Virus record (IMG/VR): IMGVR_UViG_3300050821_004879
Span: 1-32,316 of that record
From: a virus
Strand: one strand, 5' to 3'
DNA: 32,316 nt
This document shows positions 14,081-31,936 of the stretch, one piece after another. Positions within the stretch are counted from its first letter, which is position 1. Each line of letters starts with the position of its first letter. The translations under genes were made by a program, and so were the position numbers. Below the pieces are notes generated by a model that was given only the letters and a program-made list of their open reading frames with translations, was not told where the DNA came from and ran no database searches.

Positions 14081-14207
14081 CGACTTCATGGCAGTCATGG
14101 GCTGCACAGATTGGCAAGTGGAAGCGCAGATCATCAGTGAAAATGGCGAAGCAATGACTGTAGGTGACAAGGCGCTTGCTTCTTTCAATGCCAATCGGGA
14201 GGTGAGA

Positions 14208-15572: not shown

Positions 15573-17567
15573 CTACTTCAGGTAGGCTTTGAAACTGTCA
15601 GCTAGTTTTTGTAGCTTGTTCGTGGCGTTTCCAAGGCCGGAGCGGAATTTGGTCAGCGTGGGGTCAACGCCGGATTCATGCGCCGCCCAATCCTGGAAGG
15701 TGGGGTTGTTGAGCATCGCACGAATCCCCTCCGGGGCCATGCCCCGCGCGATGTGGAGGGTGCCGAACATGCTGCCCATGCCGAGCATTGCTCCGCCATA
15801 CATGATCTGCATGAGGCTGTAGGGGTCGGAGATGCCAACTTTGCGGCTGTTCTGCACCAGCTTGCGGATGGCGTTCTGGCGGATTTGTAGTGTACTCTGC
15901 CCGGCAAATTGCAGGTCAGACTCACCGCGCATGATGGAGTGATCGAGGCCAAGGTCCTTCACGCGCTGCTCTGTCTCAGCTTCAATGTCCGAGATGCGCT
16001 GCTTGGCGCCCTCTGCGGTGGACTTCTGTTCGTCGATGATGTCGGAGAGCGGGGAGGCGTCCACACCAAACGAGGTGAAGAGACGGCGGAAGGTTTCGGC
16101 CTGTGTGGGGTTCATCAGCGCGGACGTGTGGCGGAGCATGTTTTGTTCGTGGACATCGTAGGCGGACATGAAGTCGTTCATGGGGCCATCCCCCAGGCCG
16201 CGCTTGAAGTCCCTATATTCATTCTTGGCGGTCTCGTACTGCTTCCCAAATCCATTCTCATCCGCGTAACGTTGCTGGATGCCGGTCACGTTGTCGTGTG
16301 CCTCGAATAAGGCACGCTTGAGGGTGGAGTCGGTTGCGGACTGTGCGGCGTTGTAAAGGTCCTCCCGGACACGGGTGGTGGCCTTGAAGGAAACGACATC
16401 GCCGGTGTTTAGCTTGGGCGCGGCGACGTTCATAATTGCATCGACTTGCTTAGGGACGTAGCCCAGGTTGATGAGAGCACCGCGCATGTCATCCCCACCC
16501 ATGCCGTTGTGTGCCCACTTGGAGGCCATTGATGCGGCCTTCAGCTCAGAGGCGGTGAGCGCACGAACCGTTGTGGCATTCTGCTCTTGCGGGAGGGCGC
16601 TAAAAATCTTCGCGGGGATTTCGTCCGGCTGGACACCGTGTGCCGTGAGGGTGTTGACGATTTCGGCCCGCATGTCGGGGCTGGTTGTGACGGGCGCGGT
16701 GGCCTTGTCCTCAAGGTCACTGAATAGTCCTTCAACGCGGGCTTTCTCCGCATGGATGACTTGCGCGGCATCCGCCATGATCTTGCCGGTGCGTTGCGGG
16801 ATTTGTCGCTCCGAAATGTCCTTGTCAATGCCCTGCGCAATCTCAGATGTGGTGGCAGCCTCACCCTTTCCCGCAGCTTCAATTTGCTGGGCAGCTTCCA
16901 CCTTTGCCTGCACCTTCGCGGCAAGATCCCCGCTTAGGCCAAGTCTGTTTTGCACGACATCGTGGATGTTATTGAGCGTGGAACCGGCTGTTAGGGCGGA
17001 GGCTGTCCCACCCAGCCCGGCTTGTAGGGTGTCCATCGAGAGCCGATTGGCGTAGTCAATGGCGGTTTCCTGAGCTTGGCGCCCGGTGAAAAGATTCTTT
17101 GCCCCTTGATGCGCGAGGTAGAGGTTGTAGGCACTGGTCAGAGCTTGCGCGAGGACGGATTTGCCAACGGCACTTGTCCCCCCTGTGGCTGCCACAGCGA
17201 GCGCATTTTTCGGATTCAGGTTGAGGAATCCGAGCACGTCTTTTTGCACATCCATGTAGGCATTGGTCAGCATGGAGGCGTAAGGGTGATTGCTGGCCTT
17301 AAGGCTTTGGACAAGCTGAGTGCCGCTGTCATTGGCCTTATCGAGCCATCCGTGTATCGGTTCCATCCAGCCGGTGTTGAGGACATCGTTGGCACGATGC
17401 CAGTAGCTTTTGACGGAATCGGCAAAGCCGGTGTCTTGGGCGACGGTCTGTGCCCCCTTCTCATCATCGCCCCAGATAGCAGCGTTGGGCTTTTCGGGTG
17501 CGGCGGGTGCCGGTGTGGCAGGTGGCTGCTGCTGCGGTTGCTGAAGCGGATTTGGCTGAGTGCTCAT
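15573..17567 (-). CDS. Large internal virion / ejection protein (T7 gp16 position)
   Basis: 664 residues. The N-terminus is Gln/Pro-rich and disordered, followed by long helices and an Ala/Gly-rich region (NALAVAATGGTSAVGKSVLAQ). Near the C-terminus is a hydrophobic glycine-rich stretch (LMQIMYGGAMLGMGSMFG) that could insert in a membrane. It is last of the internal-virion series, the position of the T7 core protein that forms the DNA ejection channel. No lytic transglycosylase motif is visible, unlike T7 gp16. The ATG overlaps the upstream stop. Confidence 0.68.
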   Translation of the reverse strand: MSTQPNPLQQPQQQPPATPAPAAPEKPNAAIWGDDEKGAQTVAQDTGFADSVKSYWHRANDVLNTGWMEPIHGWLDKANDSGTQLVQSLKASNHPYASMLTNAYMDVQKDVLGFLNLNPKNALAVAATGGTSAVGKSVLAQALTSAYNLYLAHQGAKNLFTGRQAQETAIDYANRLSMDTLQAGLGGTASALTAGSTLNNIHDVVQNRLGLSGDLAAKVQAKVEAAQQIEAAGKGEAATTSEIAQGIDKDISERQIPQRTGKIMADAAQVIHAEKARVEGLFSDLEDKATAPVTTSPDMRAEIVNTLTAHGVQPDEIPAKIFSALPQEQNATTVRALTASELKAASMASKWAHNGMGGDDMRGALINLGYVPKQVDAIMNVAAPKLNTGDVVSFKATTRVREDLYNAAQSATDSTLKRALFEAHDNVTGIQQRYADENGFGKQYETAKNEYRDFKRGLGDGPMNDFMSAYDVHEQNMLRHTSALMNPTQAETFRRLFTSFGVDASPLSDIIDEQKSTAEGAKQRISDIEAETEQRVKDLGLDHSIMRGESDLQFAGQSTLQIRQNAIRKLVQNSRKVGISDPYSLMQIMYGGAMLGMGSMFGTLHIARGMAPEGIRAMLNNPTFQDWAAHESGVDPTLTKFRSGLGNATNKLQKLADSFKAYLK

Positions 17568-19204
17568 TGCAGTATCGTCCGCCCACCAACGACAAGGTAC
17601 GGCGTGCCATCCTTACCGATGATCGGCCCATCAGCCTGTCCTTTCGGAGCCGGGCCAAGATCACGGTGGGCGAGTTTTGCCTTGTTCAAAAGGTCCTCTT
17701 TCCGGGCTTCAACCTGAGCGTCGAAGGGGTTTGTCTCAAAGGGATTCACTGTTCTGAGGGCGCCGACAATTCCACTGTTCCACTTCCACTGCGCATCGAG
17801 GGCACTTTGGTAAGAGCCACGGGCGGAGTTGAATTGGCTGATTGCGCCCGCTCGGGTTTGCCCATTCAGGTCCTCCACCATCGGCTGATATTTTTGGATG
17901 ATCTTCCCCGCAAGTTGCATGGGGTCCTGATTGCCACCAGTGGCTGCGCTCTGCTGCATAAATTCTTGCCGGGCTGCGGACTCCACGTCGCGGTCTAAGC
18001 CAAGGCGCTGAGAGATGACGCTTTCTGCCTGTGTCTGGTCGTAATGCAGCTTCGTCTTGGCTTGCTCGTCGTTATAGCGGAGATTACTGGTCAGCTCAGT
18101 GTCAAGCTTGGTGTAATCAGGGAGGTTAAGCTTGCCGTTGCGGTAGTCATCCGCCAGTTGCTCCTTGGTGATCTTCGGAGTGGTGGAGCGGATGGCTAGT
18201 GTGGTAGCTGCAAGGGTGTCCGGGTCAGACGGCGCCCCCTTCTCATCCCGCTTGTCAATCAGATCAAAAGTGTGTTCGTAGTCCTCGCGTGAAAGGCCAT
18301 AACGGGTGCGTGCGTCCTCAAGCTCTTGGTGGGATAGCTTCCCGTTGAGAGCCTTGGAAGTCATGTCGGAGACAACGTGCTCTTGTTGTAACTTCAGCGC
18401 CTTATCCGCCTCCGCCTGCTGCTGCTTCAGGTCCGAGACAGCCTGCCGATCCTTCGCGTTCGCCTGATCGAGTGCTTCATCCATGAAACGCTGACGCCGG
18501 ACGGCATCCAGATCGGGGTACTCACCCGCTTCTAGATTTTTGAGGGCTGCATGCGGGTCGTTGCGAATATCCTGCAACGCCTTCGCGTCCGAGATGTTTT
18601 CGGAGAAGGCTTTCCAGCGGTCCTGCCCCTGTTGAGCAGTGAGGATTCCACCGGCGACACGACTGGCAATCTGCCCCCTTGCAGTCGCCATCATGGCATC
18701 GAGGGAGGGGCCGGTTTGGGAGACGGCCAGTCCGGTCAGCTTGGTCAGGGAGTCATCCAAGGTGGCAACGTCCGCTTGGTTCTCCCGCTTGCGTGCCTCT
18801 GAGCGGGCCGAGATAACCTGATCAGTGGTCAGCCGGGCGAAACTCTGGTCAAACGAGAGCTTGGCTTCAGGGTCCTTTATCTCATCCGCATATTGATCGT
18901 GGATTTCCTTGAGGCCAGCCTGCACCCTGTCCGGGAACGTTCCATAATCCGGGTCATTCAGTTGACTGTTGATGAAAGCATTGGCATCGACGGCGGCGCT
19001 TGAGCTGGATTGGATGACTTGCCGGGAGCGACGAAGTTCAATCTGCTTCTGCGCAAGATCCTCCCCGATGGTTGTGGCGGCGTCACCTAGGCGTGCGGCG
19101 GCTTCCCCAGGTAGTTGAGCTGCACCTACGGAGATACCCGGCATCGGCTCCGGTTCGCGCCGGATGTGGGCGGTGTCGCTGATGATTTGAGGGATGTGGG
19201 GCAT
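17564..19204 (-). CDS. Internal virion protein (T7 gp15 position)
   Basis: 546 residues, almost entirely helical and charged after a short N-terminus (PGISVGAAQLPGEAAARLGD). Repeated helical segments (ALKNLEAGEYPDLDAVRRQ and similar) resemble the solenoid of podovirus core proteins, which pass into the host with the DNA. It lies between the gp14-like and gp16-position genes. Assignment rests on order, size and composition; direct family identity was not checked. Confidence 0.7.
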   Translation of the reverse strand: MPHIPQIISDTAHIRREPEPMPGISVGAAQLPGEAAARLGDAATTIGEDLAQKQIELRRSRQVIQSSSSAAVDANAFINSQLNDPDYGTFPDRVQAGLKEIHDQYADEIKDPEAKLSFDQSFARLTTDQVISARSEARKRENQADVATLDDSLTKLTGLAVSQTGPSLDAMMATARGQIASRVAGGILTAQQGQDRWKAFSENISDAKALQDIRNDPHAALKNLEAGEYPDLDAVRRQRFMDEALDQANAKDRQAVSDLKQQQAEADKALKLQQEHVVSDMTSKALNGKLSHQELEDARTRYGLSREDYEHTFDLIDKRDEKGAPSDPDTLAATTLAIRSTTPKITKEQLADDYRNGKLNLPDYTKLDTELTSNLRYNDEQAKTKLHYDQTQAESVISQRLGLDRDVESAARQEFMQQSAATGGNQDPMQLAGKIIQKYQPMVEDLNGQTRAGAISQFNSARGSYQSALDAQWKWNSGIVGALRTVNPFETNPFDAQVEARKEDLLNKAKLAHRDLGPAPKGQADGPIIGKDGTPYLVVGGRTILQ

Positions 19205-19207
19205 GGT

Positions 19208-19759
19208 CTATGCTGGCTGGCTGCTTGAGGTGGAGAGGTCAGTGCCACCGGCTGCGTTAGGTTGAACTAATGGCACAGGTGCTCCGTTCGTGCCCTTCAG
19301 ACCAATTACGCCGGTTGCCACTTTGGTCGCGCCCGTCAAAAGGGTGCTAGCGATGTTAAAGTTGGAGGCTGACTTCGCGGCCTGACCTGACAAGATGCTC
19401 GCCTGCGCTCCCATCAGTTGCGATTGCGCGGTGAGTCGGGCATTTCGACGGATGTTGAGGGCGTTCAACTCCGCCTCCCTCGCGTTCTGCGCCATGACAT
19501 CCATCGGGGACCCGGACATCGTGACCCCGGAGGCACCCACGGCAGCGCGGCCCTCCGCGAGAGTCACACGGTCCTGATAGCGTTGCTGCGCTTCCGCGAT
19601 GTCACCGCTGACCAACGTGTTTTTGGCGTTGGCGACATCCACTTGTGCGTTGTAATTCGCGGCGCTCTGTGCATTCGCACCAGCAGACGCCTGTCCCACA
19701 GCGGACACAGCGGTGCCTGCCGCAGCGGCGGCAATTCCTATGATTGGAAGGACGGGCAT
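19208..19759 (-). CDS. Internal virion protein, T7 gp14-like
   Basis: 183 residues. The N-terminal hydrophobic Ala/Gly helix (PIIGIAAAAAGTAVSAVGQ) and the following pattern (AANYNAQVDVANAK, GRAAVGASGVTMSGSPMDV, then NIRRNARL) match the widespread podovirus internal virion protein related to T7 gp14, which enters the outer membrane during ejection. It starts within the end of the gp13-like gene (22-base overlap) and precedes two large core proteins. Confidence 0.8.
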   Translation of the reverse strand: MPVLPIIGIAAAAAGTAVSAVGQASAGANAQSAANYNAQVDVANAKNTLVSGDIAEAQQRYQDRVTLAEGRAAVGASGVTMSGSPMDVMAQNAREAELNALNIRRNARLTAQSQLMGAQASILSGQAAKSASNFNIASTLLTGATKVATGVIGLKGTNGAPVPLVQPNAAGGTDLSTSSSQPA

Positions 19760-20220
19760 GTGTTTTCACCGAAAAATCTGACGTACCGAACATAGTCGGA
19801 ACGGTCTGTGCCGTATTGACGCATGACACCCTCGCGGCGGAAGCCAAGGGTTGAGACCCAGCATCGACTGACACGGTGGGTGACGGGGATTTCCACCTGC
19901 ACACGATGGAGTTTTAGTTCATGGGCAATCATCCCGAGATGCTTGCGGACGGCGCGGTGGAAGCTGAATTGGTACTTGCGGACAAGGGCGGAGGTGAAGG
20001 CCCAGCCGCTTGCTACACCCGGCCAGATTACGACAAGCCCGGCTGCGCCAATCGCGGCGCCATTGACAATGCCAGTGAAACCCATGCCCATTTTTTCGTA
20101 CAGTCGCGCCGCCTCAAGTAAATCCGGGATGCCCTCCGCGATGGTGCGGTCAGGCTCCCGCGCTTGAATCATCAGAATGTCATCCGCCTCAAAGGGCTTG
20201 AGTTGAAGCACGTCAGGCAT
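19738..20220 (-). CDS. T7 gp13-like (GNAT-fold) protein
   Basis: The ATG at 20220 overlaps the tail-tube B stop by eight bases and gives 160 residues beginning MPDVLQLKPFEADDI; a TTG at 20241 is possible. Pattern is that of the gp13/DUF2833 phage family, an acetyltransferase-like fold: opening K-P-x-D/E pattern, central AAGLVVIWPG strand, and the late RVSRCWVSTLGFRREG motif typical of GNAT ends. In T7-like phages it is needed for correct internal core assembly. Enzyme activity is uncertain. Confidence 0.7.
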   Translation of the reverse strand: MPDVLQLKPFEADDILMIQAREPDRTIAEGIPDLLEAARLYEKMGMGFTGIVNGAAIGAAGLVVIWPGVASGWAFTSALVRKYQFSFHRAVRKHLGMIAHELKLHRVQVEIPVTHRVSRCWVSTLGFRREGVMRQYGTDRSDYVRYVRFFGENTCPSFQS

Positions 20221-22258
20221 CTCCCACGTCCAGGGTTCCAAAAATAGAGAGCAGAGTCAGCGGGAGGGGCTGAGTTTGCTGGATGGTTATGTAAGCATCC
20301 CGGTCCCACCCGGTGTTTGAAATGCGCTGGTCCCCGCTGAAAAGGCTTGGGAAAGAGATCAGATTCCCATTGATGGTCACGCTCATGGTGTTGTAAAGAC
20401 GAGCGAAAATCTGGTTGTAGCGTTTGTGGGCGCCTTGTGCGGTTCCGGCGTCCCCGCCAGCTTCGGGGCGCAATGTCTCGATAGTGGATGGGAAATGGAG
20501 GCCAACTTCCGCGCTGGTCACGGGGGAGTCGAGGGTGATCTGCCCTCCACTCACAACCTTCTGGCGCTGCACCAACCCATTCCCGAGTACGTCAACCGTC
20601 GCGCCGTTTAGGTAAGCAAGGCCGGTGATGGTAGAGGTGGAGACACCGGAGTAGGACATCCCCGCGTCCACATTGAGGTATCCGTAAAATCCACCCTCCG
20701 TGTCGAGGTATTCCACAAAACGCGTCTGGACGCCGTTTACCGTTCGGTTAACAACCACCCATGTTTGATCTTGCGTGCCATCCGGCGCAGGGATGACGGC
20801 CACACTCTCAAACTTCCCGTCCGAGAGGTCCTGATTGGGGCCGGTGATCTGCCGATGCCACGCCACCACGTCATCCGTCTTGTCGTAAAATACACCGACA
20901 ATGCCATTTACTCTTTCGTAAGTGACGCCAACAAGAGTGCCATCGTTGCGGATCATCCAGATGATTGAGTCAAGTTCTTGCTGGTAATCCATCTGCGCCA
21001 CACCGCCCAACGTCATGTGCTCGCTCAGGAGGGCAAGGTCTGGGGCGATGTAGCTGCTTGAGTAGAGGTTATAGGAAAGCTCCCGCAATTTGCGGCCCGC
21101 ACGCTGCACGAAGATCGTGGCGTTGTACGCCTGGATGGGAGATAGATTCGCGGAGCCATGCGTGGTTTGCTGCTTTGCCACGACCGTGGAGGGCGTGATG
21201 GCGATGGTCGGGTCGCCACCACTGACTTCCCACTCCTGCCCAATTGTGCCCACCAGCAAAGCAAGTGCCGGGGCAATCCACTGAATTGCATTCAACTGAT
21301 TGGAGGCAAGTGTGAACGTCAGCGCCTCATCCGCCTGTCCGGTCCCTTCGTCCATGTTCAAATAGTCGGAGGTTTGGCTGGCCCACAGGGTATCCGGCGA
21401 AATGGGTGTGTTCGCCCACCATGTTCTTTGTTGGAAAAGTGTCACACAGGCGGGATTATTGCTTGCAACTCCAAAGTTCCCGACATACCACGCGCCAAGC
21501 CAAAAATGGTCTGCCGTTGCCGTGCTTCCAAAGTTGCCAACAACTGAAAATTGAGCATGTGTCGTATCCGTCTCCGCTGTGATGTACCCCCAGCCGAACG
21601 CGGTCCCCTGCTGGAGTTTTATGAGCGTGCCGGGAGACGTGTACCCTTGCCGAAAGAACGGTGCGGATGCTGTGATTGTGATTGTCCCGCCAGTTGTGGC
21701 GGATGGTGTGAGGGTAAATCCAAGGTTTCCGCTTCCAGGGACTAATTCATCTTCATTCCGGTATGGTCCATTCGTAAACCCGAACGCTCCGGCGCCAAAA
21801 TTGAGAAGTATGAGATTCCAACTGGTATCTGAAAAGTGAAGCAATTCAGAGGGGGCATGGTTCGGGTGGGCGATGTAGAGTACATCCACCGATTGCGCGA
21901 AGTGAAGTTGGAATATCTCGGTCGCAAGGTAGGTCGTGGCGACTTGATAAGGCACACCGCCCGAGAGGACCGGGGCGCCGTTCTTGTAAAAGCGAATGTA
22001 GTTTTCGCCAAACTCAAGCACGAAGGCTTGATTGCTAGCGGAGATGAAGGGGACAAGCCGGGTCTTTTTAGAAGGCGTCTTGACCGTCGCCACATAACGT
22101 GTCCCTGGCCTTCGTGTCACCCCACCTTGCTTGAAGCACGTCACATTTTGCAGGGTCTGTGCAGCATTCTTAAACTTCGCAAGGTCAGAGCGGGCGGCAG
22201 TACGCGGCGCCCATTCCCCTGCCGAGAACGCATTCTGGATTGTGCGAACGCGAGCCAT
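20213..22258 (-). CDS. Tail tubular protein B-like (nozzle) protein
   Basis: 681 residues beginning MARVRTIQNAFSAGEW, then a conserved opening: SDLAKFKNAAQTLQNVTCF, GGVTRRPGTRYVA, RLVPFISASNQAFVLEFG, YIRFYKNGAPV. This FsaGE ... RRPGTRfva ... RlvPF ... vLEFG series is known from podovirus tail nozzle/tubular B-type proteins. It forms the distal tail tube to which fibres attach. It lies directly after the tail tubular A-like gene with no intergenic space, as in T7 (gp11-gp12). Confidence 0.87.
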   Translation of the reverse strand: MARVRTIQNAFSAGEWAPRTAARSDLAKFKNAAQTLQNVTCFKQGGVTRRPGTRYVATVKTPSKKTRLVPFISASNQAFVLEFGENYIRFYKNGAPVLSGGVPYQVATTYLATEIFQLHFAQSVDVLYIAHPNHAPSELLHFSDTSWNLILLNFGAGAFGFTNGPYRNEDELVPGSGNLGFTLTPSATTGGTITITASAPFFRQGYTSPGTLIKLQQGTAFGWGYITAETDTTHAQFSVVGNFGSTATADHFWLGAWYVGNFGVASNNPACVTLFQQRTWWANTPISPDTLWASQTSDYLNMDEGTGQADEALTFTLASNQLNAIQWIAPALALLVGTIGQEWEVSGGDPTIAITPSTVVAKQQTTHGSANLSPIQAYNATIFVQRAGRKLRELSYNLYSSSYIAPDLALLSEHMTLGGVAQMDYQQELDSIIWMIRNDGTLVGVTYERVNGIVGVFYDKTDDVVAWHRQITGPNQDLSDGKFESVAVIPAPDGTQDQTWVVVNRTVNGVQTRFVEYLDTEGGFYGYLNVDAGMSYSGVSTSTITGLAYLNGATVDVLGNGLVQRQKVVSGGQITLDSPVTSAEVGLHFPSTIETLRPEAGGDAGTAQGAHKRYNQIFARLYNTMSVTINGNLISFPSLFSGDQRISNTGWDRDAYITIQQTQPLPLTLLSIFGTLDVGDA

Positions 22259-22849
22259 CTACCGCACGTCCGTCAGGATGTAGGAGCCGAAGTCATCCGG
22301 CGTGCCTTCCATGCCGTCGATGGTGCGGGCTTCTTTGAGGATGCCGAGATAGAGTTGCCAGACGCCCTGAGCAGCGGCGGTTGAGCCGGTGATGGGGAAG
22401 GCGAGAGAGGCGGCCAGACGGTAGATGAAGGCTTGGTAGAGCAGGGAGTCCAATTGGGTTAAGTCAGTCACACGCCCGATAAAGCGGATGGAAGCGACCG
22501 GATCATCCGTCATCAATTTGCGACCGGAGGCACCTGCCTCGATCTTGAAGTTGCTGCCGGGGTCGCCATTGTCTTGGTCATCATTCAATCCGAGCACGCG
22601 TAGACAATAAGGAGTGGTGGTCAGATCGTAGGCATAGGTCCACCCAAAGGAGGGCGTCGAGGTCAGAGCCAAGGTGGCACGGAAGGAGGCAGAGGTCCAC
22701 GGGTGTGCCCTCAAAACACCGTCGTAGATAGTGCTGACGAGTGCGTTTGCAGCGACAGCACGCGGGGTCGTGTCGGTGAGCGCAACGATGGGGTTGTCCC
22801 CCAGGATCGTGAGCGCCTGATTAGTGGCGTCGAGAAAGGAGTTTGCCAT
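22259..22849 (-). CDS. Tail tubular protein A-like (adaptor/gatekeeper)
   Basis: 196 residues. The opening FLDATNQALTILGDNPIVAL, the AHPWTSASFRATL block, and the late helix (LLYQAFIYRLAASLAFPITGS) are those of T7 gp11-type adaptor proteins that sit below the portal. Size is normal for the family. The following gene is the nozzle protein, confirming the tail module. Confidence 0.87.
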   Translation of the reverse strand: MANSFLDATNQALTILGDNPIVALTDTTPRAVAANALVSTIYDGVLRAHPWTSASFRATLALTSTPSFGWTYAYDLTTTPYCLRVLGLNDDQDNGDPGSNFKIEAGASGRKLMTDDPVASIRFIGRVTDLTQLDSLLYQAFIYRLAASLAFPITGSTAAAQGVWQLYLGILKEARTIDGMEGTPDDFGSYILTDVR

Positions 22850-22850
22850 T

Positions 22851-23240
22851 TTAAGCGGCCAACAAAATTTCCGCTGGTTGCGTGGAGCTTGCGGAGGTCA
22901 ACGAAAGGGCGGTGATCCCGCCCGCTGAAACCGGATTGCCGGTTTGAAAGTAGACAAACAGTTCACCCGGCTCCAATGTGACGGTTGTGCTGGTTGAGCC
23001 GTTTGGCGTGAAGGTCACACTGAGATTCGTCAGCCCCTTGTTCGTCACCACAACCACACTTACATTCGCGGCGGGCAGGTTGATTGTCAGTGGCGTGATC
23101 GGAACCTGCAAAAACGGCTCATAGAAAACCGTGGTCGCTGGGTAAAGCAGGGAGAGAGCCCGTGCAACAATGGTGGCATTGGTCACTGCGTCAGTTGCAG
23201 ATAAGGTGCTGTTCAAGGTGACGTTTATGTTTGCGGACAT
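22851..23240 (-). CDS. Small beta-rich virion-block protein
   Basis: 129 residues, rich in Thr/Val/Ser (LTINLPAANVSVVVVTNKG, TTVTLEPGELFVYFQTG), which suggests a compact beta sandwich. It lies between the holin-like protein and the tail adaptor. No cysteine, signal peptide or catalytic motif. A head or tail decoration role is inferred from position. Confidence 0.65.
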   Translation of the reverse strand: MSANINVTLNSTLSATDAVTNATIVARALSLLYPATTVFYEPFLQVPITPLTINLPAANVSVVVVTNKGLTNLSVTFTPNGSTSTTVTLEPGELFVYFQTGNPVSAGGITALSLTSASSTQPAEILLAA

Positions 23241-23456
23241 TTAGCTCTTTCCAAAGCCATTGCGGAGTTGGTTGACGGCATAGTGAACCGTGGCGAAGCC
23301 GCCCAGGCCCATCATTGTCGTTGCATCCGGGAGGACACCATGGAGGCGAGTGACGTGAATTAGGCAATACACGGCTGCGGAACTGTGGGCGAGCGTGAGG
23401 ACACGGCTGGCGCTGCCAGTTCCACCGTCGCTAAAGACTTCTTTGAGAAAGTTCAT
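23241..23456 (-). CDS. Small membrane protein, holin candidate
   Basis: 71 residues with two moderately hydrophobic stretches (VLTLAHSSAAVYCLIHV and MMGLGGFATVHYAV) around a short polar turn containing LPDATT. Short length and two spans fit a class II-type holin. The location among virion genes, 8 kb from the SleB-like hydrolase, is unusual; the other holin-like gene at 15344-15562 is next to the hydrolase. Function uncertain. Confidence 0.6.
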   Translation of the reverse strand: MNFLKEVFSDGGTGSASRVLTLAHSSAAVYCLIHVTRLHGVLPDATTMMGLGGFATVHYAVNQLRNGFGKS

Positions 23457-23459
23457 CGG

Positions 23460-24959
23460 CTACTGTCCTTCCAGCAATTCATACCGGCGCTGTTTGTTAA
23501 AGCTGGGGGTAGTTACGCCTCCCGGAGCCTTGAACGCGAATAAATCCGAGCGCCAGCCCTGTACCGGCCCGCTCTGTTTCCATGTAACCGTAAAGGCCGA
23601 TGCGCTTGAGTAAAGGTTATTCAGTTTGCCGTTGTTTTCGTCTAATTCGTTTATGCTGGCTTCTTGCGGGGAATAGGCCGTGTCGGAATTTCCTGTAGCA
23701 CTGCCCTGAATCTGCGGGGTGCTGACGCCAATGTCGGCAATCATGATCCCGCTGCTCGTGCTTGGGGTAGCGATTACCGTATTGAAATTGCCCGTGGCGC
23801 TTTGCGTCCCCGTGGCGTCGCAGTAGCCCGTTGTGCAGGTCGTTCCGCTGCCCGCAGTGATGGACGTGTCGAGCGTGCCCGTCTGCGAGAAGGCATAGAT
23901 CAGGCAATCGCCTTCGCTAAATGATCCCGAGGCGAGCGTAATGGTTAGAACGTCGGTGCTGCTGAATGTTGGCGTAGCGTTCGACGTGTACCACGCCATC
24001 TTGAGACCGGAGCCTGCGTTGTCGGCCCCTTGTCCGATCTTCGTCCAGGTATTGCCGCTGCCCGTGCCGCTCTGCGAGATAGCCGAGATGAATCCATTCC
24101 CGGCACTAGAATTGATGCATTCGAGAACCGCCATCGAACCATTGACCGGGATGGGCAGCTTGAACCCACTCGCCGCCGTGGCGACGTTGTAGTGCTCAAT
24201 GCTGGTGATGTAAAAGCCCGTGTCAGCCCCGCCCGCCGTACCAGACGTATAGGAGGCAGCGAGTGCACCCCAAGCCACGCTTGCGGCGAGAGTGAAATTG
24301 GCATTTACCGCCGTGGTGGAGCTGGCCACGCAGGTTTCTACGGACTCAGCGACTAGATTTGCTGTGATATAGCCAGGATCGTTTTGCTGGAATCCCCATG
24401 TGCAGTTTGAGGCGCTCCCAATCGTCCAGGCTTCGGGAGTCGTGCCAGACTCGTTTCCCGCGATGGCGACCATTAGGTCACCGCTGGCTGGCGTCAAGCT
24501 TCCCGCTGTTACCGCCGTCCCGGTGCCATTGTTACCAGCCGAGCAGCCATGCTTCGCGGTGACATTGTTGACTTCAGCCGACGCCCACTGGATAAATCCG
24601 GGCTGGGCGCCAGTGAAGGTGAAGGTGAGAATCCGCGCTCCTGCCGTAGCAGCAATATGCCCAATTTTGTAGGTTTGATTGGAGTCGGAGAATGTGCAAT
24701 CCACCGTCCAAGTGTCGCTCTTGTCATCCGTGAGTGTTGCGACCACGGAGGCGTTCACGGCGTATTGAATTTCAGCAATGATCCAATTCCCCGAAACCGT
24801 GGGCATCGGCAAAGGACAAATGTACGTCGTGTAGGCGGTTGATCCACCAGACGGGCACCCTCGATGTGTTACCTGCGTTGGTGTCGCGGCGCGCCCGAAC
24901 GCCGCGAAGAAAGGCAGCACTAGCAGCAATCCCGCCTTCATGGCCCAATGCCGAATCAC
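23460..24959 (-). CDS. Secreted-type Cys-rich protein in virion block
   Basis: The start is called at a GTG (24959) that overlaps the upstream stop as GTGA; ATGs at 24980 and 24941 are alternatives. All three keep a Sec signal peptide: basic start, hydrophobic core KAGLLLVLPFFAAF, cleavage region GRA-ATP. The 499-residue product is Ser/Thr/Gly-rich and beta-like, with many spaced cysteines (RGCP, TYICPLP, VDCTF, GDCLIYAF, TTCTTGYC). Typical tail fibres have no leader peptide, so export to the periplasm or surface is plausible. It may be a receptor-binding or host-modifying protein. Not recognised. Confidence 0.75.
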   Translation of the reverse strand: MIRHWAMKAGLLLVLPFFAAFGRAATPTQVTHRGCPSGGSTAYTTYICPLPMPTVSGNWIIAEIQYAVNASVVATLTDDKSDTWTVDCTFSDSNQTYKIGHIAATAGARILTFTFTGAQPGFIQWASAEVNNVTAKHGCSAGNNGTGTAVTAGSLTPASGDLMVAIAGNESGTTPEAWTIGSASNCTWGFQQNDPGYITANLVAESVETCVASSTTAVNANFTLAASVAWGALAASYTSGTAGGADTGFYITSIEHYNVATAASGFKLPIPVNGSMAVLECINSSAGNGFISAISQSGTGSGNTWTKIGQGADNAGSGLKMAWYTSNATPTFSSTDVLTITLASGSFSEGDCLIYAFSQTGTLDTSITAGSGTTCTTGYCDATGTQSATGNFNTVIATPSTSSGIMIADIGVSTPQIQGSATGNSDTAYSPQEASINELDENNGKLNNLYSSASAFTVTWKQSGPVQGWRSDLFAFKAPGGVTTPSFNKQRRYELLEGQ

Positions 24960-26986
24960 AGTCCGGTTGTCTCCATCCATTCAAAGGTGATGTCGAAACT
25001 GCCGCCAGTGACGGTCGCGCCGTTTAGATTCACGGCGAGTTGCTGCGCTGTTCCACGAAGAACAATGCTCTGCCCCATGCCCGGTCGCCAGATGTAGATG
25101 TCATTCGGGCTTGCCGTTCCTGCGGCCATGCACCCAAGCCAAACGGCGTCGTAATTACCAACCGTGGAATTGACCGTGGGATTCGCGGTATAGGTTAGAG
25201 GCGCTGAGACAGCGGAGGCATTACTGGTATCGTTCTTCACCGCCGTCATGGCTGCCGAAGTTCCGCTGGTATCTGCTGTGGTACGCTGGATAAGCTGTAA
25301 CTGGACGATTCCAGCAGTGGTCTGCGTGCAGGAAATCTTGACGCCCGTAACAATGACGGTGTTGGTCGCGTTTCCGGGAAGCACCGCGATGTCCGTTGCG
25401 CTCGCCGCCACCGCAAGTCCCAGCTTATTCGCTTTGTAGCTAGCGATGCTGGTTTCTGGTACTTGGGCCATAAGCCCATTGCCTTGGAGATCGGTGCGGA
25501 GAGCGGTGTCCCGACCAGCCGTAGCGGCAGACGGCATATTGGATTCAGCGATGCCCGGTAATACCGGCGCACGATTGGTCGTTGCAGCCGAACCGTTGTC
25601 CCCTAGGTGGCCACCGACAGCTTGGACACCTGCGGTGCCGTCAGTGGGGCAAGCTGTAGTCCCGACGAAGCAAGCAGCATTGGAATTGAGTGCCTTCACC
25701 GCGCCCGGCGACGTGCCAAAGTTTGCCATCGCGCCCATTGCTGCGGTGCCATCAGTGGGTTCCGCAAATATCGGATCGGTTGCGGAGTTTGCCGAAGTGT
25801 CCTTGCTCACTTCGCAAGGCGTGCTCGCACCGCACTGATTGGCTGAGGTCGCGGCACCGGAAGGCAACGGCAAAGACGCAGCACTGATAGCAACCGTCCC
25901 AGGTATCACTACCCGGATATTTCCCGAGAGATCGCAGGACAGAAGAACCTGATCCCCAGTAGTATTCGAGGGGGCAGATGATCCCGCAAGGCAAGGGAGA
26001 ACCCCTAAGTTATTGGCTCCCGGCGCGGCATTGTTGTTCGTGAGTGTGCCCACTATTGACCAGGGGGCATTGCCCTGCTGCACGGTCCATGTTCCAGATT
26101 GAGTGACGGCGCCGATTACATTCGCTCCGGCCGGCAGCGCCGCATTAACGCTCACCAGTAGGTTTTTGCTGCTATCCACTCGAAGTCTGTCCCACGTCGT
26201 TCCGTTGAATGCGGCCAGCAAATCGAATTGAAGTCCCGCAGTTGTGGGGTTGGCGAAAGCGTCTGAAGGAGTTGTAGAGCCACCCGAGCATCCCACCACA
26301 CAATCGGTGTAGAGGTAGCTATGGGAATCAATCCGCGCCCGGCCTGCGTTGCCGTTTGAAATTGCCGGATCGGCGCCGGTGTCATACAAGCCACCGATGG
26401 GATTGACGGGCGTGATGCCCACAGTAAAAGCAGAATTGTCAGCAAATCCCGCAGAGCTGGAACATCCCGAATCGCAATCCACATGCAGGTTGGAGCCTGA
26501 AGCCTGTATGGCCGTAACCGAACTATCCCCCCGCGTGCCAATGGGGGACATGCTCATGGTTATGCCTACGTTGACGGTGCCGGAGGTGATGGCGGATAGG
26601 CGCACCCTAAAGCGGTATGCGGAAGGAGTGGGGCAGTCTAAGGCGATGGTGGAATTGTTCGCAAGAGCCTCCGTGTTTTCCTGCTTCGTCGAGTCGGTGC
26701 GAACACAGAGGACTGGGAAATACGTTGTGCCACCATCATCAGAGATTTCAAAAAACACTGTGGACCCTGAATAGGTCCCGCTGATGCTGACGAGCGCGGT
26801 GGGATACCCGATGGCTTGAGGGCCACCGACTAAAATATCAAGGGCACTCCCCGGTGTCCCGCTGCACGTGCTGTTCGCAGTGGAACAGGTTGTGGTGAGC
26901 GCCCCGGTTTGTCTGAGTACGTTGGTCTGTGAAAGAAGGGTGAGAGGGCAGAGAAGGCCAATCACTAGCCAGAGATATTTACGCAC
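24956..26986 (-). CDS. Large secreted-type Cys-rich protein, tail/adhesin-like
   Basis: The GTG at 26986 has AAGGAG four bases upstream; an earlier in-frame start at 27040 lacks such a site. The resulting 676 residues begin with a Sec-type leader (MRKYLWLVIGLLCPLTLLS). The body is beta-rich with paired cysteines, including two related motifs VDCDSGCSSS and TDCVVGCSGG, plus CGASTPC and CFVGTTAC. A VTQSGTWTVQQG segment resembles motifs in repetitive phage/bacterial surface fibres. It lies directly before a second leader-bearing protein. Disulfides would form only after export, supporting a periplasmic or surface fate. Confidence 0.78.
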   Translation of the reverse strand: MRKYLWLVIGLLCPLTLLSQTNVLRQTGALTTTCSTANSTCSGTPGSALDILVGGPQAIGYPTALVSISGTYSGSTVFFEISDDGGTTYFPVLCVRTDSTKQENTEALANNSTIALDCPTPSAYRFRVRLSAITSGTVNVGITMSMSPIGTRGDSSVTAIQASGSNLHVDCDSGCSSSAGFADNSAFTVGITPVNPIGGLYDTGADPAISNGNAGRARIDSHSYLYTDCVVGCSGGSTTPSDAFANPTTAGLQFDLLAAFNGTTWDRLRVDSSKNLLVSVNAALPAGANVIGAVTQSGTWTVQQGNAPWSIVGTLTNNNAAPGANNLGVLPCLAGSSAPSNTTGDQVLLSCDLSGNIRVVIPGTVAISAASLPLPSGAATSANQCGASTPCEVSKDTSANSATDPIFAEPTDGTAAMGAMANFGTSPGAVKALNSNAACFVGTTACPTDGTAGVQAVGGHLGDNGSAATTNRAPVLPGIAESNMPSAATAGRDTALRTDLQGNGLMAQVPETSIASYKANKLGLAVAASATDIAVLPGNATNTVIVTGVKISCTQTTAGIVQLQLIQRTTADTSGTSAAMTAVKNDTSNASAVSAPLTYTANPTVNSTVGNYDAVWLGCMAAGTASPNDIYIWRPGMGQSIVLRGTAQQLAVNLNGATVTGGSFDITFEWMETTGL

Positions 26987-27008
26987 GGCTCTCCTTCCGC
27001 GCCGCGCC

Positions 27009-27323
27009 TTACTCTGTGGCGGTTGTGGCAATTTTGACAAACGCTGCGTGCGCGGCCTTCACCTGAGCGAGTTGCGCTTGGGATGCGGTGATTTGATCGG
27101 TGAGGTCTTTTTGCACAGCGGCTAGCTTGCTGGGTGCGGCAGCAATGTCCGCATTCAACGCGGCGAGCTTTGCCGTTTGTGCATCCACCTGATCGGAAAC
27201 CGGCTGCAAACTGTCCGCTTTGCTCTGAAGGGCAGCGACATTCGCTTGGAGGGCATCTTGCAGACCATCAATCTCATTGAGGTGCTGCTTGATGCTGGTC
27301 AGGATTTCGGCGTTGGTTGGCAT
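27009..27323 (-). CDS. Coiled-coil protein
   Basis: 104 residues, almost wholly heptad-like (LQDALQANVAALQSKADSL, KLAAVQKDLTDQITASQAQL). No cysteine, membrane span or signal. It sits between the beta-rich capsid-proximal protein and the first leader-bearing protein. Possibly an oligomerisation or chaperone factor for the neighbouring fibre-like proteins; inference only. Confidence 0.7.
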   Translation of the reverse strand: MPTNAEILTSIKQHLNEIDGLQDALQANVAALQSKADSLQPVSDQVDAQTAKLAALNADIAAAPSKLAAVQKDLTDQITASQAQLAQVKAAHAAFVKIATTATE

Positions 27324-27332
27324 GTCCCGTCC

Positions 27333-27794
27333 TTAGTCCACAACGTAGAGGACATATCCGTACAGGTTCGAGGAGGCCGTCCAGGCGGCGGTGGCATTCG
27401 TCGCAATCAAAAGTTCCGCGCCGGTGGAATTGGCAGAGGTAGTTGGAGAGGCTTCGGTAGACCCCCAATTGAGGGCGACGGTGTTCAAAAACTCATTCTG
27501 CGCCGTGGAGTTGGTGACGGCTGCGGCGAAATATTTGCCCGCTGTTCCAGAAATGCCGATTGCCGTGGTCGCGCTTGCACCCTGCGCCGTGTCCCACGCA
27601 AATGTGCCCTTGATGAGCCGCGCACCTTTCGGGATGTAGCAGAGCTGGATGATGTCGCCAATGTTGTTTCCGGAGGCGGGAGTCACCGCCGTGAAAAACG
27701 CCACACGCAGGCGTCCACCAAGGTCTGTCGCGCCCAGCTTCGTAACCGGATTCGAGAGGACGTTTGCTACCTGTGTTGAATTGATCGTTGCCAT
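27333..27794 (-). CDS. Virion-block protein, possible head decoration
   Basis: 153 residues beginning MATINSTQVANVLSNP, beta-rich with many Ala/Thr/Asn (TAIGISGTAGKYFAAAV, ELLIATNATAAW). First gene after the capsid gene and the probable terminator, the usual place of small head proteins. A GGGAG lies eight bases before the ATG. I do not recognise the family; a head-decoration role is inferred from position. Confidence 0.65.
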   Translation of the reverse strand: MATINSTQVANVLSNPVTKLGATDLGGRLRVAFFTAVTPASGNNIGDIIQLCYIPKGARLIKGTFAWDTAQGASATTAIGISGTAGKYFAAAVTNSTAQNEFLNTVALNWGSTEASPTTSANSTGAELLIATNATAAWTASSNLYGYVLYVVD

Positions 27795-27819
27795 TTCAAT
27801 TTCTCCCTAGCTTTCCGCT

Positions 27820-27855
27820 TTGAGAAGAAGGATAGGGGCCGCTTGTGACGGCCCC
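27820..27855 (-). terminator. Probable terminator after capsid gene
   Basis: On the minus strand, GGGGCCG (27855-27849), a 7-base loop and CGGCCCC (27841-27835) form a perfect stem, followed by TATCCTTCTTCTC, a T-rich but imperfect tail. It lies eight bases after the capsid stop. T7 has a terminator at the same place (after gene 10), which limits expression of tail genes relative to capsid. Confidence 0.55.
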
Positions 27856-27862
27856 CTTGCTG

Positions 27863-28762
27863 CTAATTCGTTTCATTTATCTTGAAACGGACCACGCCGT
27901 TGCCTTGCAGGCGGGTGGCACCGAAAGACCCAGCCACGTAAACCTGAGTGGCGTAGGACTTGTCGGACCGTTCCGTTACGCGGGTGATAAACTCCATGCC
28001 AACCGAAATGCCCATCGACTTTTCGTGCCACGCGAAGCCGTAGGAAAGGTTGGCGCCGAGACCATCTTGGCTCAGGTTGCCCTGGGGCATACGGGTCGTG
28101 CGGTGGAATTTGAAGCCGAGAAAGGTGTCAATCTCGCCGTTGACGAGGGCTTTCACGGTGTTGTAATCCGCGTTGGAAATCATCGGGGCAGTGCTCTGCT
28201 TCAGGAGTTGAGCAAAGCCAGCCGGGCGCATGACAATGTGACGCCCCTCATCCGGGACATCCTGCGCATCCAAGTCGAGCTTGACTTGCACAAGGTTCGG
28301 GACGGTGAGGGCGGCGCCGGAGAAGTCCTCGTCACCGGCTTTCTCGGATGAAAAGGTGATCTGCGTTGAACCGTCGATTGCGCCGTAGGCGATGCCATCG
28401 AAGGCGTTGATGACTTCATCATCGAAGGATCGGCCAAGCGCATAGCCCGCGTTCACGGCATATGCCGACTGAGGGTCAATCAAAATTCTGATGGCGTCCT
28501 GCTTGTCAATCAAATCCGCCCACTCATAGTCTTGCAAGGTAACCATGCGCCGACTGTGAGGGGTGTTGACGAGCGGTGTGTCAGAGTTGCGGGAGAGCTT
28601 CTTTTGCGCGGCGGTCTGATCCACTCGATCCCAGAAATCCGCCCGGCCCGTTACCGTTCTCTCTTGGACAGAGCCGCGAAGTTTGGAACCCGCTTGCTGG
28701 TAGGTAATCAGCACATTGTCCTTGTATTGCTGGACATGTGCCGTTGTAATCTGGTTTGACAC
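27863..28762 (-). CDS. Major capsid protein
   Basis: 299 residues from a GTG at 28762, with AGGA six bases upstream. The N-terminal part (TAHVQQYKDNVLITYQQAGSKL), mid-section DWADLIDKQ-like (EWADLIDKQDAIRILIDPQS) and the C-terminal NETN end fit phage capsid proteins of the HK97 fold. It lies after the scaffold gene and has its own promoter, a structured leader and a terminator, in line with the highest expression in the genome. Assembles the icosahedral shell. Confidence 0.85.
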   Translation of the reverse strand: MSNQITTAHVQQYKDNVLITYQQAGSKLRGSVQERTVTGRADFWDRVDQTAAQKKLSRNSDTPLVNTPHSRRMVTLQDYEWADLIDKQDAIRILIDPQSAYAVNAGYALGRSFDDEVINAFDGIAYGAIDGSTQITFSSEKAGDEDFSGAALTVPNLVQVKLDLDAQDVPDEGRHIVMRPAGFAQLLKQSTAPMISNADYNTVKALVNGEIDTFLGFKFHRTTRMPQGNLSQDGLGANLSYGFAWHEKSMGISVGMEFITRVTERSDKSYATQVYVAGSFGATRLQGNGVVRFKINETN

Positions 28763-28970
28763 GGAAGGTCCTCACGCGAAATTGAATTTTGTGAAGCATC
28801 GCGGAGGGTTGCCCGTCTTAGGAACGGACCCGCCTGCCTGCTATCGTGCAGGGTGGGCGGCTTGTCTTTCCAAGCGGTCAGCCGGACCTTGTGAGGGGTT
28901 GCCCGACTTACTGAAGGGGCCGAAGCGTTGACATTATGCTGAGGGGATTGCACCCTCAATCTTTTAACAA
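28763..28970 (-). promoter_or_regulatory. Structured leader RNA of the capsid gene
   Basis: The roughly 200-base stretch between promoter and capsid start has no gene. In the transcript sense it holds four hairpins: 28958-28940 (TGAGGG/CCCTCA), 28888-28876 (GGTC/GACC), 28875-28860 (GCTTG/CAAGC) and 28851-28838 (CTGC/GCAG, with a flanking 5-bp outer stem). Three of them lie between two near-identical repeats reading CGGGCAACCC (28905-28896 and 28815-28806; on the plus strand GGGTTGCCCG). Could control stability or translation of capsid mRNA, or bind a protein. No known RNA family recognised. Confidence 0.5.
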
Positions 28971-28977
28971 CGCACCA

Positions 28978-29006
28978 ATTAAATCACATATGACGCATTT
29001 TGTCAA
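28978..29006 (-). promoter_or_regulatory. Late promoter upstream of capsid gene
   Basis: On the minus strand, a perfect -35 TTGACA (29006-29001), a 17-base spacer and -10 TTTAAT (28983-28978). It overlaps the stop of the small gene upstream. The -35 is embedded in TAATGCTTGACA, identical to 4015-4026 in the rightward early promoter. Implies use of host sigma70 polymerase for late genes. Confidence 0.65.
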
Positions 29007-29009
29007 GCA

Positions 29010-29213
29010 TTACTTCTTGCTTCCATACGCCTTCGCATGATGAGCGATGTGGGAAAGGGTGACGGCGAGCCGGGCACGCTTACCCTCCACCCCTCCCTTT
29101 TTGGCGGCAGCACGCAGCTTACCTGCTGGAATCTTCTTCCCCTCCGGCACCCCCAGCTCTTTATGGAGAGCGCCGGGATGTTTGATGGCCCCAGCAATCC
29201 AATGCTTCGCCAT
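29010..29213 (-). CDS. Small basic phage protein
   Basis: 67 residues, strongly basic: MAKHWIAGAIKHPGALHKE, then EGKKIPAGKLRAAAKKGG and KRARLAVTLS. This opening is common in small phage proteins next to head genes. GGAG lies seven bases upstream of the ATG. Role unknown; may bind DNA or capsid. Confidence 0.72.
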   Translation of the reverse strand: MAKHWIAGAIKHPGALHKELGVPEGKKIPAGKLRAAAKKGGVEGKRARLAVTLSHIAHHAKAYGSKK

Positions 29214-29215
29214 CG

Positions 29216-30073
29216 CTACGCTCCCGATCCCGTCCCTAGCGCCGGGGCGGTGCCATACAACTTTTCATAAAGCGCGTTCACTTCCCGGACGGCTGCCTGT
29301 CGCGCTGCGGGTGTGGCATTGCGGCTGTTATACGGGTGCTTGGGATCGTTCCGAATCTCATTGATCTTGAGTTGAATTGCATCACGCGAGCCTTCGTCCT
29401 GCGTTGTGGGACCATCCCCGAGGACGATTGTGTCCTCCCCGAGCTGCGCGCCCAGGTTGGCGAAAAATTTCACCAGCGCCGGATGGTTGCCAAGGCCGGT
29501 GCTATCGAGGAGGCCTTTGATTTCATCCCCTCCCAACTCATTCACGGCCTTCACCGCAAGGGCCGCGTTCTTGTCAAAGTTCGCTCCCCACTCTTTCTTG
29601 AGCTCCGCGATGCCGGTTTCCATGCCCTTCCGGTAGGTTGTCAGATTCTCCGCTTGCGCCGCCGTGAAGCGGTCCAATAGACGCTGGGCCTGTCGAGGGT
29701 GAAGCCCTGCTTCATGTGCCCACGCCTTGAAATTTTTCTCAAGGCCCTCATCGTATGGGACACCCTCCGGCACAGCCGGGCGCTTCAGCTCGTACTTGTC
29801 GGCAGCGTCAGGCCGTCCCAAGCGCGTGTAAAACTTCCCCCACTCTTCATCGCTAGCATCGGCTTTCGGGAGGCGCACTGATCCACCCACCAACTTCTGT
29901 GCCTCAATGAACGACTTCGTTAGCCCCCCGATGTCCTTGAAGTCCTTGATGGAAGGGTCAGCACGCAATTCTTCCGGGAGGCTAGCACGCCAATCAGTCC
30001 CCGCATTGCCACCACCCTGTGCTACTGCTGCCACTGGTGTCTCCGCCGTCAAAACCGTCGCTGTCGTGCTCAT
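29216..30073 (-). CDS. Scaffolding protein
   Basis: 285 residues, helical and acidic. Conserved pattern: DWRASLPEELRADPSIKDF, GLTKSFIEAQKLVGGSVRLP, a RLGRPDAADKYEL segment, AHEAGLHPRQAQRLLDRF, and a charged C-terminal helix (REVNALYEKLYG). Matches podovirus scaffold proteins that guide capsid assembly. Lies between portal and capsid genes, as expected. Confidence 0.83.
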   Translation of the reverse strand: MSTTATVLTAETPVAAVAQGGGNAGTDWRASLPEELRADPSIKDFKDIGGLTKSFIEAQKLVGGSVRLPKADASDEEWGKFYTRLGRPDAADKYELKRPAVPEGVPYDEGLEKNFKAWAHEAGLHPRQAQRLLDRFTAAQAENLTTYRKGMETGIAELKKEWGANFDKNAALAVKAVNELGGDEIKGLLDSTGLGNHPALVKFFANLGAQLGEDTIVLGDGPTTQDEGSRDAIQLKINEIRNDPKHPYNSRNATPAARQAAVREVNALYEKLYGTAPALGTGSGA

Positions 30074-30276
30074 TCCTCACTCGCCTCCTGTGAAATTGCG
30101 GGTTCATTAAGGCGGTCCCGCTGCCGCAGAATATGTACCAACAAATCTGCCATACCTGCTCGCGCTTCCCGATCTTTCGTTTGCTGCACCGTGCGAGTCA
30201 GATCGACAAGCACCAAATGACCTAGTGGGCCGGTGAAGATTTTGTACGGTTGCTCTGGCTCAGGCCGCTTGACCAT
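30070..30276 (-). CDS. Small hypothetical protein between portal and scaffold
   Basis: The ATG at 30276 has GGGAGGG four to five bases upstream and gives 68 residues. Opens VKRPEPEQPYKIFTGPLGH, then a basic/acidic helix (VQQTKDREARAGMADLLVH). Overlaps the portal stop by 17 bases and its own stop overlaps the scaffold ATG. No family recognised; a head-assembly accessory is inferred from the position. Confidence 0.66.
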   Translation of the reverse strand: MVKRPEPEQPYKIFTGPLGHLVLVDLTRTVQQTKDREARAGMADLLVHILRQRDRLNEPAISQEASEE

Positions 30277-31936
30277 TATTCCCTCCCTGTGCACTCGCAA
30301 CCTGCGGGAGCAGCTTCAACGCCGGAGCCGCCTTCCCCGCTGCTTGCGCGGTTGTCTGTGCGTCCATGAGTTGTTGGCGCTCCGCGTTCTGCTGGTCCCT
30401 CTGCGCTCGCATCTTGGCGACGTCTTTCGGATCACGGAGCACGTGCGTTGGCACCCCAAGCACATCCGCGCTGATCCTCACCGCCTGATCGAAGTCAATC
30501 ACGTCAATCACATTCGGCTGAAGGGTTGCGGCGCCCTGCACGTACTGTCCGAGACGTTCAATCCCCTCCACTTCAGATAGTCGTTGCGACTTCGCCAGCG
30601 GCCCCTCATACTGCACGTCGATGTCTGCACCGTTTTTGGTGAGAATATCGGGCGGAGGTGTGAACGCCCCCTTGCGGAACATGATTCCAAACGTGCGCTC
30701 GATCAGTGGATTCAGCAACTCGGTTTCCTGACGGCCCATCGTTGGTCCTAGCAATCGTTCCAACAACTCAAACCGTTTCGCAACCTCAAACGCCGTCATC
30801 TGCGGGCCTTGCGGCAATTCCATCTGATCGGCAAAAAATATGCGCCTAATCGACGCCTTCAAGTCACCCGCCTTAACCTGATCGTTCGAGATGGACTCAC
30901 GGAAAGTCCCCGGAGGGAAAAGCGGCTGCAACGCCTCCATATCCCGCACAATCGTATTCCCGCCCGGCACGTTGCGGATCGGCCCCACCACGCCGTCATC
31001 AATAGACTTGGTGGGCATGTCGAGATTTTTCGCCCATGTCCTCAGCCCAAGCTCCACAACTTTGTTGAGGGTCTTGGTGTCCGGCAAAGCAATGTGCCCA
31101 GGACCCCTGCCGTAAATCTCGCCCGCCGTCTTTGTCCACCGGGGGACCATGAATGGAAATTCATTGAACCCACCTTCATCAATCAGATTTTTGTCGAGCA
31201 TCCCAATATAAACGGAGGCAACCGGGAGATTCGTTTTCGGTGTCCCTTGCGTCGGGATGGGCTTGCCGTCGATCTTGCGCGGGAACACGGCGTGCAGAAA
31301 TTCAAAGAGGTCATCAGCCTTGCCGGTGTCGAAGGCTTGCAAAACGCGTGGTCCCAACTTGTCCCTGCCCCACTTATCTACCGCAGCCGCCGCGCTCATC
31401 TTGAATGTCCGCATGAGCGTGTCTACCCTGCCCTCCGCATTCTCATCAATCACAAGGTCAGCGAGCGCCAAGGCACGGAAGATAATCCCCTTGAACGTCG
31501 ATGACTCCGGCTCCTTTTCTTCTTCCAGAAGCGCCGCAGTGCCAAACGCACCCTCATCCAAGTAAACTTCATGCACCTCCGAATTAAAATTCGACTGGTT
31601 GAACACCCGGAACATCCGCTTCGCGCACTCTTCAAGCCACTCCTGCACATCCTGACTTTCATTCAACTGCTCATCGCGGATTTTCAATGAAAACCACTTG
31701 GCGGAGCGGGTGGTCAGCGTCCCATTGAGGGTAGACGCCAGCCGGTCATTCGCATCCAGGGCCGTCGAGTCGTAAAGGTGCTCGGTCTGTCTTTGCCCCG
31801 GCGCCGGTTTCAAAACAAACTGCGCCCGCCTAGGATGGATGACGTTCGCAATATCCTGCCACACCCATCTCCAAAGCTGATGCTGTTCCACCAGCCGCTT
31901 GTGCCTTCGCAGAACTGATTGGGGATCAATTGGCAT
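30260..31936 (-). CDS. Portal protein (head-to-tail connector)
   Basis: 558 residues, with the podovirus portal pattern: RRHKRLVEQHQLWRWVWQDI, the IHPRRAQF segment, LYDSTALDANDRLASTLNG, SAKWFSLKI, then FNSEVHEVYLDEGAFGTAAL. Further on PFMVPRWTKTAGEIYGRGP and a long C-terminal helix rich in Q/A (RAQRDQQNAERQQLM). The dodecameric ring through which DNA is packaged. Size is normal for T7 gp8-type portals. Confidence 0.93.
   Translation of the reverse strand: MPIDPQSVLRRHKRLVEQHQLWRWVWQDIANVIHPRRAQFVLKPAPGQRQTEHLYDSTALDANDRLASTLNGTLTTRSAKWFSLKIRDEQLNESQDVQEWLEECAKRMFRVFNQSNFNSEVHEVYLDEGAFGTAALLEEEKEPESSTFKGIIFRALALADLVIDENAEGRVDTLMRTFKMSAAAAVDKWGRDKLGPRVLQAFDTGKADDLFEFLHAVFPRKIDGKPIPTQGTPKTNLPVASVYIGMLDKNLIDEGGFNEFPFMVPRWTKTAGEIYGRGPGHIALPDTKTLNKVVELGLRTWAKNLDMPTKSIDDGVVGPIRNVPGGNTIVRDMEALQPLFPPGTFRESISNDQVKAGDLKASIRRIFFADQMELPQGPQMTAFEVAKRFELLERLLGPTMGRQETELLNPLIERTFGIMFRKGAFTPPPDILTKNGADIDVQYEGPLAKSQRLSEVEGIERLGQYVQGAATLQPNVIDVIDFDQAVRISADVLGVPTHVLRDPKDVAKMRAQRDQQNAERQQLMDAQTTAQAAGKAAPALKLLPQVASAQGGNNGQAA

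Follow-up and report, generated by a model that had tools for sequence, protein, structure and literature searches.

Sec-type leaders and pairable cysteines in two putative fibre-like proteins from the virion gene block of a podovirus fragment

Textbooks describe the assembly of tailed phages as cytoplasmic, with tailspikes and fibres that lack a leader and fold inside the cytoplasm. The window analyzed here, the whole 32,316-base virus record of a podovirus fragment, holds two adjacent genes in its virion block, named A and B, whose products begin with Sec-type leaders. This raises the question of where such proteins go and whether they end up on the virion. The favored answer, to which we assign a probability of roughly 0.52, is that A and B are Sec-exported, disulfide-bonded fibre- or tailspike-like adhesins which are released at lysis and most likely dock on virions at that time.

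The A-B locus and its products

The minus strand of the window carried genes for the portal, scaffold-like, major capsid, tail tubular A- and B-like and internal virion proteins and the endolysin, and the plus strand carried the integrase, UDG-PolA and further genes. A and B formed part of the late virion block, whose strand they share, with start-stop overlaps. Their neighbors were the major capsid protein (phrog_3437, E 2e-66) and, at the opposite end, tail tubular A/B-like proteins (phrog_394, phrog_376). The position between head and tail genes and the GTGA-type overlap described in an earlier note on this DNA were thus both found. Apart from these two, the window yielded no recognisable fibre or spike gene. 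The features are as follows.

22851-27323, minus strand: segment of p104, A, B, p71 and p129, missing between p153 and tail tubular A in same-capsid relatives
26991-26996, minus strand: Shine-Dalgarno sequence AAGGAG of A, read in the sequence
24956-26986, minus strand: gene A, 676 aa, Sec-type leader, fibre-like repeats and beta-sandwich domains, 16 cysteines past the leader
26930-26986, minus strand: leader of A, MRKYLWLVIGLLCPLTLLS, with GTG start; predicted cut between MRKYLWLVIGLLCPLTLLS and QTN
26459-26479, minus strand: first DCxxGCS motif of A (C171, C175)
26285-26305, minus strand: second DCxxGCS motif of A (C229, C233)
24959-25633, minus strand: residues 452-676 of A (C-terminal part), which share 71% identity with the A homolog of locus L011
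24956-24959, minus strand: GTGA overlap, start codon of B on the stop codon (TGA) of A
23460-24959, minus strand: gene B, 499 aa, Sec-type leader and two tandem beta-sandwich domains, 10 cysteines past the leader
24888-24959, minus strand: leader of B, MIRHWAMKAGLLLVLPFFAAFGRA; predicted cut between MIRHWAMKAGLLLVLPFFAAFGRA and ATPTQ
24237-24878, minus strand: first beta-sandwich domain of B (model residues 22-235), moderate confidence
23529-24209, minus strand: second beta-sandwich domain of B (model residues 245-471), moderate confidence

The GTG start of A at 26986 was preceded by a strong Shine-Dalgarno sequence (ggaaggag-agcc-GTG), and its stop codon was at 24956-24958. A longer TTG start at 27040 was rejected, as it would run into the preceding gene and lacks a ribosome site. 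The best start of B was the GTG at 24959; the ATG at 24941 likewise yields a leader, and the RxWAxKxGLL n-region is common to a 90% identical homolog in L002.

In five relatives with the same capsid (L056, L061, L062, L064 and L058) the gene order was capsid, p153, tail tubular A, tail tubular B, and the A-B site was empty, so A-B is an insertion. The same-position homologs for which the earlier note proposed a search were missing from these relatives, and leader-bearing homologs were found elsewhere, among others in L002 and L011.

Several other genes of the window were recorded. The 71-aa protein directly after B (23241-23456, minus strand) has a hydrophobic stretch and is possibly a holin, with no family match. 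A tyrosine integrase (7946-9253, plus strand) and a uracil-DNA glycosylase fused to a family A DNA polymerase (9792-12464, plus strand) occur in this podovirus together with T7-like tail genes. A small probable lipoprotein (7622-7945, plus strand; MKLRLLTAAVLFLSVGC) and a protein with an N-terminal membrane helix (12431-13090, plus strand), both distant from the endolysin, are possible spanin parts.

A was akin in sequence to phage fibre-like repeats and beta-sandwich domains. Searches of Pfam and PHROGs with A and with B gave no match, and no recognised fibre family or head-binding domain was detected in either; for this reason A and B are said to work like fibres and are not classed as members. 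Structure prediction, proposed earlier, was informative for B, which was modeled as two beta-sandwiches, and not for A, whose AlphaFold model had a mean pLDDT of 37 and was not used. The best Foldseek match of the B model had an E value of 2e-4 but a TM of about 0.1, and the VIA structure search gave Z of at most 8.2 and no confident PDB match. The fold is a common beta-sandwich, and no family is claimed for B from these matches. In tblastn searches of 50,697 phage records, A matched one record (MW202554), and B and three other members of the gene runs described below matched none. In bacterial genomes A was found at one Bradyrhizobium locus, with no further locus in family- and order-wide searches (the order-wide one without a positive control), and B had no match in those searched.

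Leaders and cysteine parity

The leaders were called by a heuristic rule (a positively charged n-region, a hydrophobic core and small residues at positions -1 and -3), by which the N-termini of both A and B, and of their homologs in L002 and L011, were recognised as Sec leaders. None of the other virion-block genes of the window was called. Random N-termini of the same composition were called in 1.6% of draws for A and 0.7% for B, and 17/471 shuffled N-termini passed. Since the rule is not SignalP, an independent sign was sought in cysteine parity. Proteins of oxidising compartments tend to have even cysteine numbers. The sequences are mostly metagenomic, with predicted gene starts, and the one Bradyrhizobium locus gives a host.

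The cysteine richness noticed earlier was evident: the mature parts of A and B contain 16 and 10 cysteines, versus 10 in about 4,200 aa (0-2 each) across the 14 other proteins of the block, and the two DCxxGCS motifs were present in the larger protein. Viral contigs were then scanned with the fibre repeat of A, which gave 45 loci from which duplicates were removed. The cysteine count was even in 23 of the 24 complete leader-bearing family members, A included (p=1.5e-6; 4 to 16 per protein). The sole odd member, L031, may be even too, because its odd cysteine adjoins the predicted cut. Leader-bearing members had a mean of 1.59 cysteines per 100 aa, compared with 0.33 in leaderless ones, most of which had zero. 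One beta-sandwich domain of A recurs in both kinds of protein; its leader-bearing copies had either 0 or 2 cysteines, never a single one, and its leaderless copies had none. L012, with the leader VSLRSGVLGVTFLLGALFFFCGSGAAQ recognised by eye and 16 cysteines past it, was counted as leader-bearing in this comparison; the family totals given above stand as computed, with L012 entered as leaderless owing to an overlong ORF and L031 as odd. As the leaderless homologs of A are nearly cysteine-free, the leader and pairable cysteines come and go together. Some cysteines are present in leaderless relatives of the B domain too.

The same test was applied to all 765 distinct ORFs of 120 aa or more across the collected loci. 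Among those with cysteines, 86/99 leader-bearing ORFs were even (87%, p=1e-14), versus 245/506 leaderless ones (48%). Because homologs are not independent, one ORF per homology cluster was also counted, and 50/62 leader-bearing ORFs were even (p about 6e-7). Leaderless proteins of at least 200 aa with at least 4 cysteines showed a slight even bias (121/198, versus 55/60 leader-bearing), which perhaps comes from missed leaders or metal sites. On these sequence grounds, the even counts tied to the leader are a signature of disulfide pairing after export, and the leaders of this class very probably act as export signals.

Export, suggested by the earlier note, is strongly supported by leaders that recur in homologs together with the putative cysteine pairing. 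Its refuting observation, homologs without a hydrophobic N-terminus, was also made and was informative, as those of A have almost no cysteines.

Leader-bearing spikes and mobile gene runs

A second, independent family was found through the Collar fibre of G007, in which the leader is followed by a domain that lies at the extreme N-terminus of leaderless spikes. Leaderless spikes starting with this domain occur in phages of Pseudomonas, Rhodoferax, Xanthomonas, Shewanella, Vibrio and Thalassomonas, and in phage isolates it starts at Met1. The G007-type domain matched PDB 7eeq, "Tailspike head-binding domain" (E 2.9e-10), and also the tail spike 9vyg. A scan for this domain gave 64 loci, including 18 distinct members with a leader, whose predicted cut coincides, exactly or nearly, with the start of leaderless relatives. 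The leader-bearing loci are L121-L135, L155, L163, L180 and L183. The cysteine count was even in 16/16 complete leader-bearing members (2 to 18), versus 15/28 leaderless members with cysteines. Most leader-bearing members belong to one group, so the 16 even counts are not 16 independent cases. In the tree they were placed among leaderless members, with about 4 changes, at least 2 of them forced by well-supported branches. These proteins often carry Collar or S74 domains; in L123 the order was leader, head-binding domain, Collar, S74 chaperone.

A and B were also part of mobile runs of 2-6 leader-bearing genes each, whose domains include fibre repeats, LamG, GH26/GH5, GH28, arabinofuranosidase-like and other glycan-active ones. 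An A-B pair, both with leaders, lies behind the portal gene in L011, an otherwise different phage, and in a third phage, L002, the B copy lies beside a lysozyme-like gene. Fibre-like leader-bearing members were present in L012 and at L093:7967-9964. G002 has five leader-bearing genes in a row and, besides them, a leaderless S74-containing protein, so exported proteins need not be the sole receptor binders.

Further runs are listed here for their content. In G003 (L095/L096, IMGVR_UViG_3300032001_000019), six consecutive leader-bearing genes (16563-31387) occupy about 15 kb, 36% of the 41-kb contig, and lie immediately ahead of terminase- and portal-like genes. Judged by eye, the members of 1432 and 1295 aa seem polysaccharide-active, with Pfam giving only Gly_rich_2 for the first. 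One protein of the L093 run (9931-13812) combines a GH5 cellulase, a GDSL lipase and GH26. The complete circular phage L086 (MW202554.1) has leaders on Collar fibre, GH28, LamG and A-like proteins (13349-14374, 24079-25638, 25674-26465, 27039-29579); its Collar-domain fibre starts MIVLVLLFLLLSISSADAG, and the annotated start of its GH28 gene appears to lie inside the leader. The Bradyrhizobium locus L119 (Bradyrhizobium sp. Tv2a-2, 8686-13412) has three consecutive leader-bearing genes with 8, 4 and 8 cysteines in a bacterial genome; its sequence is the same as that of virus contig L051, and it is a possible laboratory handle on the class. A similar short C-terminal tail (MALLGVGRCG, LTMLGAGC, MLLLGVGP) was seen on otherwise unrelated leader-bearing proteins (L002:7935-9476, L005:10797-11807, L010:14995-15786) and is possibly a docking or sorting peptide.

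Proposed route, alternatives and known systems

The favored reading draws on the leaders, the leader-tied cysteine pairing, the kinship of A with fibre repeats, the block position, the mobility, and the sister family in which a leader precedes a virion-binding domain. A and B would be made late, along with the virion proteins, exported by the host Sec pathway and relieved of their leaders. Their disulfide bonds would form in the periplasm, where the proteins would wait while particles are built in the cytoplasm. Lysis would then free them beside the progeny, on whose virions they would most likely dock. Such late joining is physically reasonable, given that spike-less P22 heads take up purified P22 tailspike in vitro. 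Decoration of virions after lysis, one of several suggestions made earlier, best fits the wider class, because head-binding domains sit immediately behind the leaders there; for A and B, in which no such domain is recognised, we infer docking. The broader proposal, that in one class of tailed phages the receptor-binding proteins mature beyond the cytoplasm through Sec export, periplasmic disulfides, trimming by signal peptidase to the canonical N-terminus and joining at lysis, is tentative, with odds somewhat below even.

A serious rival is that A and B, once exported and disulfide-bonded, act freely at or after lysis as secreted adhesins, binding or stripping surface glycans so that progeny escape capture by debris or spread through the matrix. 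The neighboring leader-bearing genes of related phages, which include GH26+GH5+GDSL, GH28, LamG and arabinofuranosidase-like enzymes or domains, are consistent with free action, as are the carbohydrate-binding look of the two beta-sandwiches of B (with no confident match) and the leaderless S74-containing protein retained by G002. However, domains that serve in virion attachment and in the folding of fibres (head-binding, Collar, S74) are kept in the leader-bearing spike family, A has leaderless fibre-like relatives in phages, and nothing was seen that would carry A and B past the outer membrane of a diderm host before lysis. Free action is accordingly rated at about one chance in three in our judgment, below docking on virions.

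The remaining explanations are much less probable. Lysogenic conversion, in which A and B would be made from a prophage and alter the host surface or block superinfection, is suggested by the tyrosine integrase of the window and by the run in a Bradyrhizobium genome, but such integrases (only the tyrosine type was scored) were present in only 2/16 related run-bearing records, and A and B are embedded in the late block with its start-stop overlaps; this reading is improbable. Membrane anchoring by an uncleaved leader, raised earlier and consistent with the hydrophobic core that both leaders have, is less probable still: small residues at -1/-3 give good cleavage sites, no other clear membrane segment lies beyond the leaders, and the predicted cut in the spike family falls where leaderless relatives start. 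Equally slight is the chance that translation starts past the leaders and A and B stay cytoplasmic. Predicted gene starts and a caller that passes some shuffled N-termini leave room for it, but the Shine-Dalgarno sequence ahead of the GTG of A and the excess of even counts in leader-bearing ORFs argue against it.

If fibres and spikes of some soil and freshwater phages are indeed exported and disulfide-bonded, the assembly of these phages needs a final extracytoplasmic step, receptor binders could be held separate from progeny within the cell, and stabilisation of spikes by disulfides could account for durability in soil. A leader with an even cysteine count would be a simple genome-wide marker for adhesins and depolymerases among unannotated late phage genes. 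The open-access literature was searched for leader-bearing fibres or spikes and no description was found, although absence there is not proof of novelty.

The coat protein and pIII of filamentous phages are virion proteins with a cleaved Sec leader, assembled at the membrane by extrusion. The phages described here are alike in their Sec-leader proteins, but they are tailed, with a portal, a scaffold and a major capsid protein. XepA of PBSX (PDB 6i56), an exported phage-coded protein, showed a weak fold likeness to part of B at Z 6.4, a level (under 8) often reached by this fold; no sequence match and no link to fibres was seen. The T4 antiholin RI has a cleavable Sec leader and works in the periplasm (PMC8385771), but it is a small lysis regulator, whereas A and B are large adhesin-like proteins of the virion block. 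Podoviral tailspikes and fibres (7eeq-type head-binding, Collar, S74) resemble A in its fibre repeats, which occur in leaderless phage proteins, and in virion-block position. They differ from A and B in the Sec leader, the paired cysteines and the head-binding domain, which is not recognised in A and B, and the leader-bearing sister family shares these tailspike domains.
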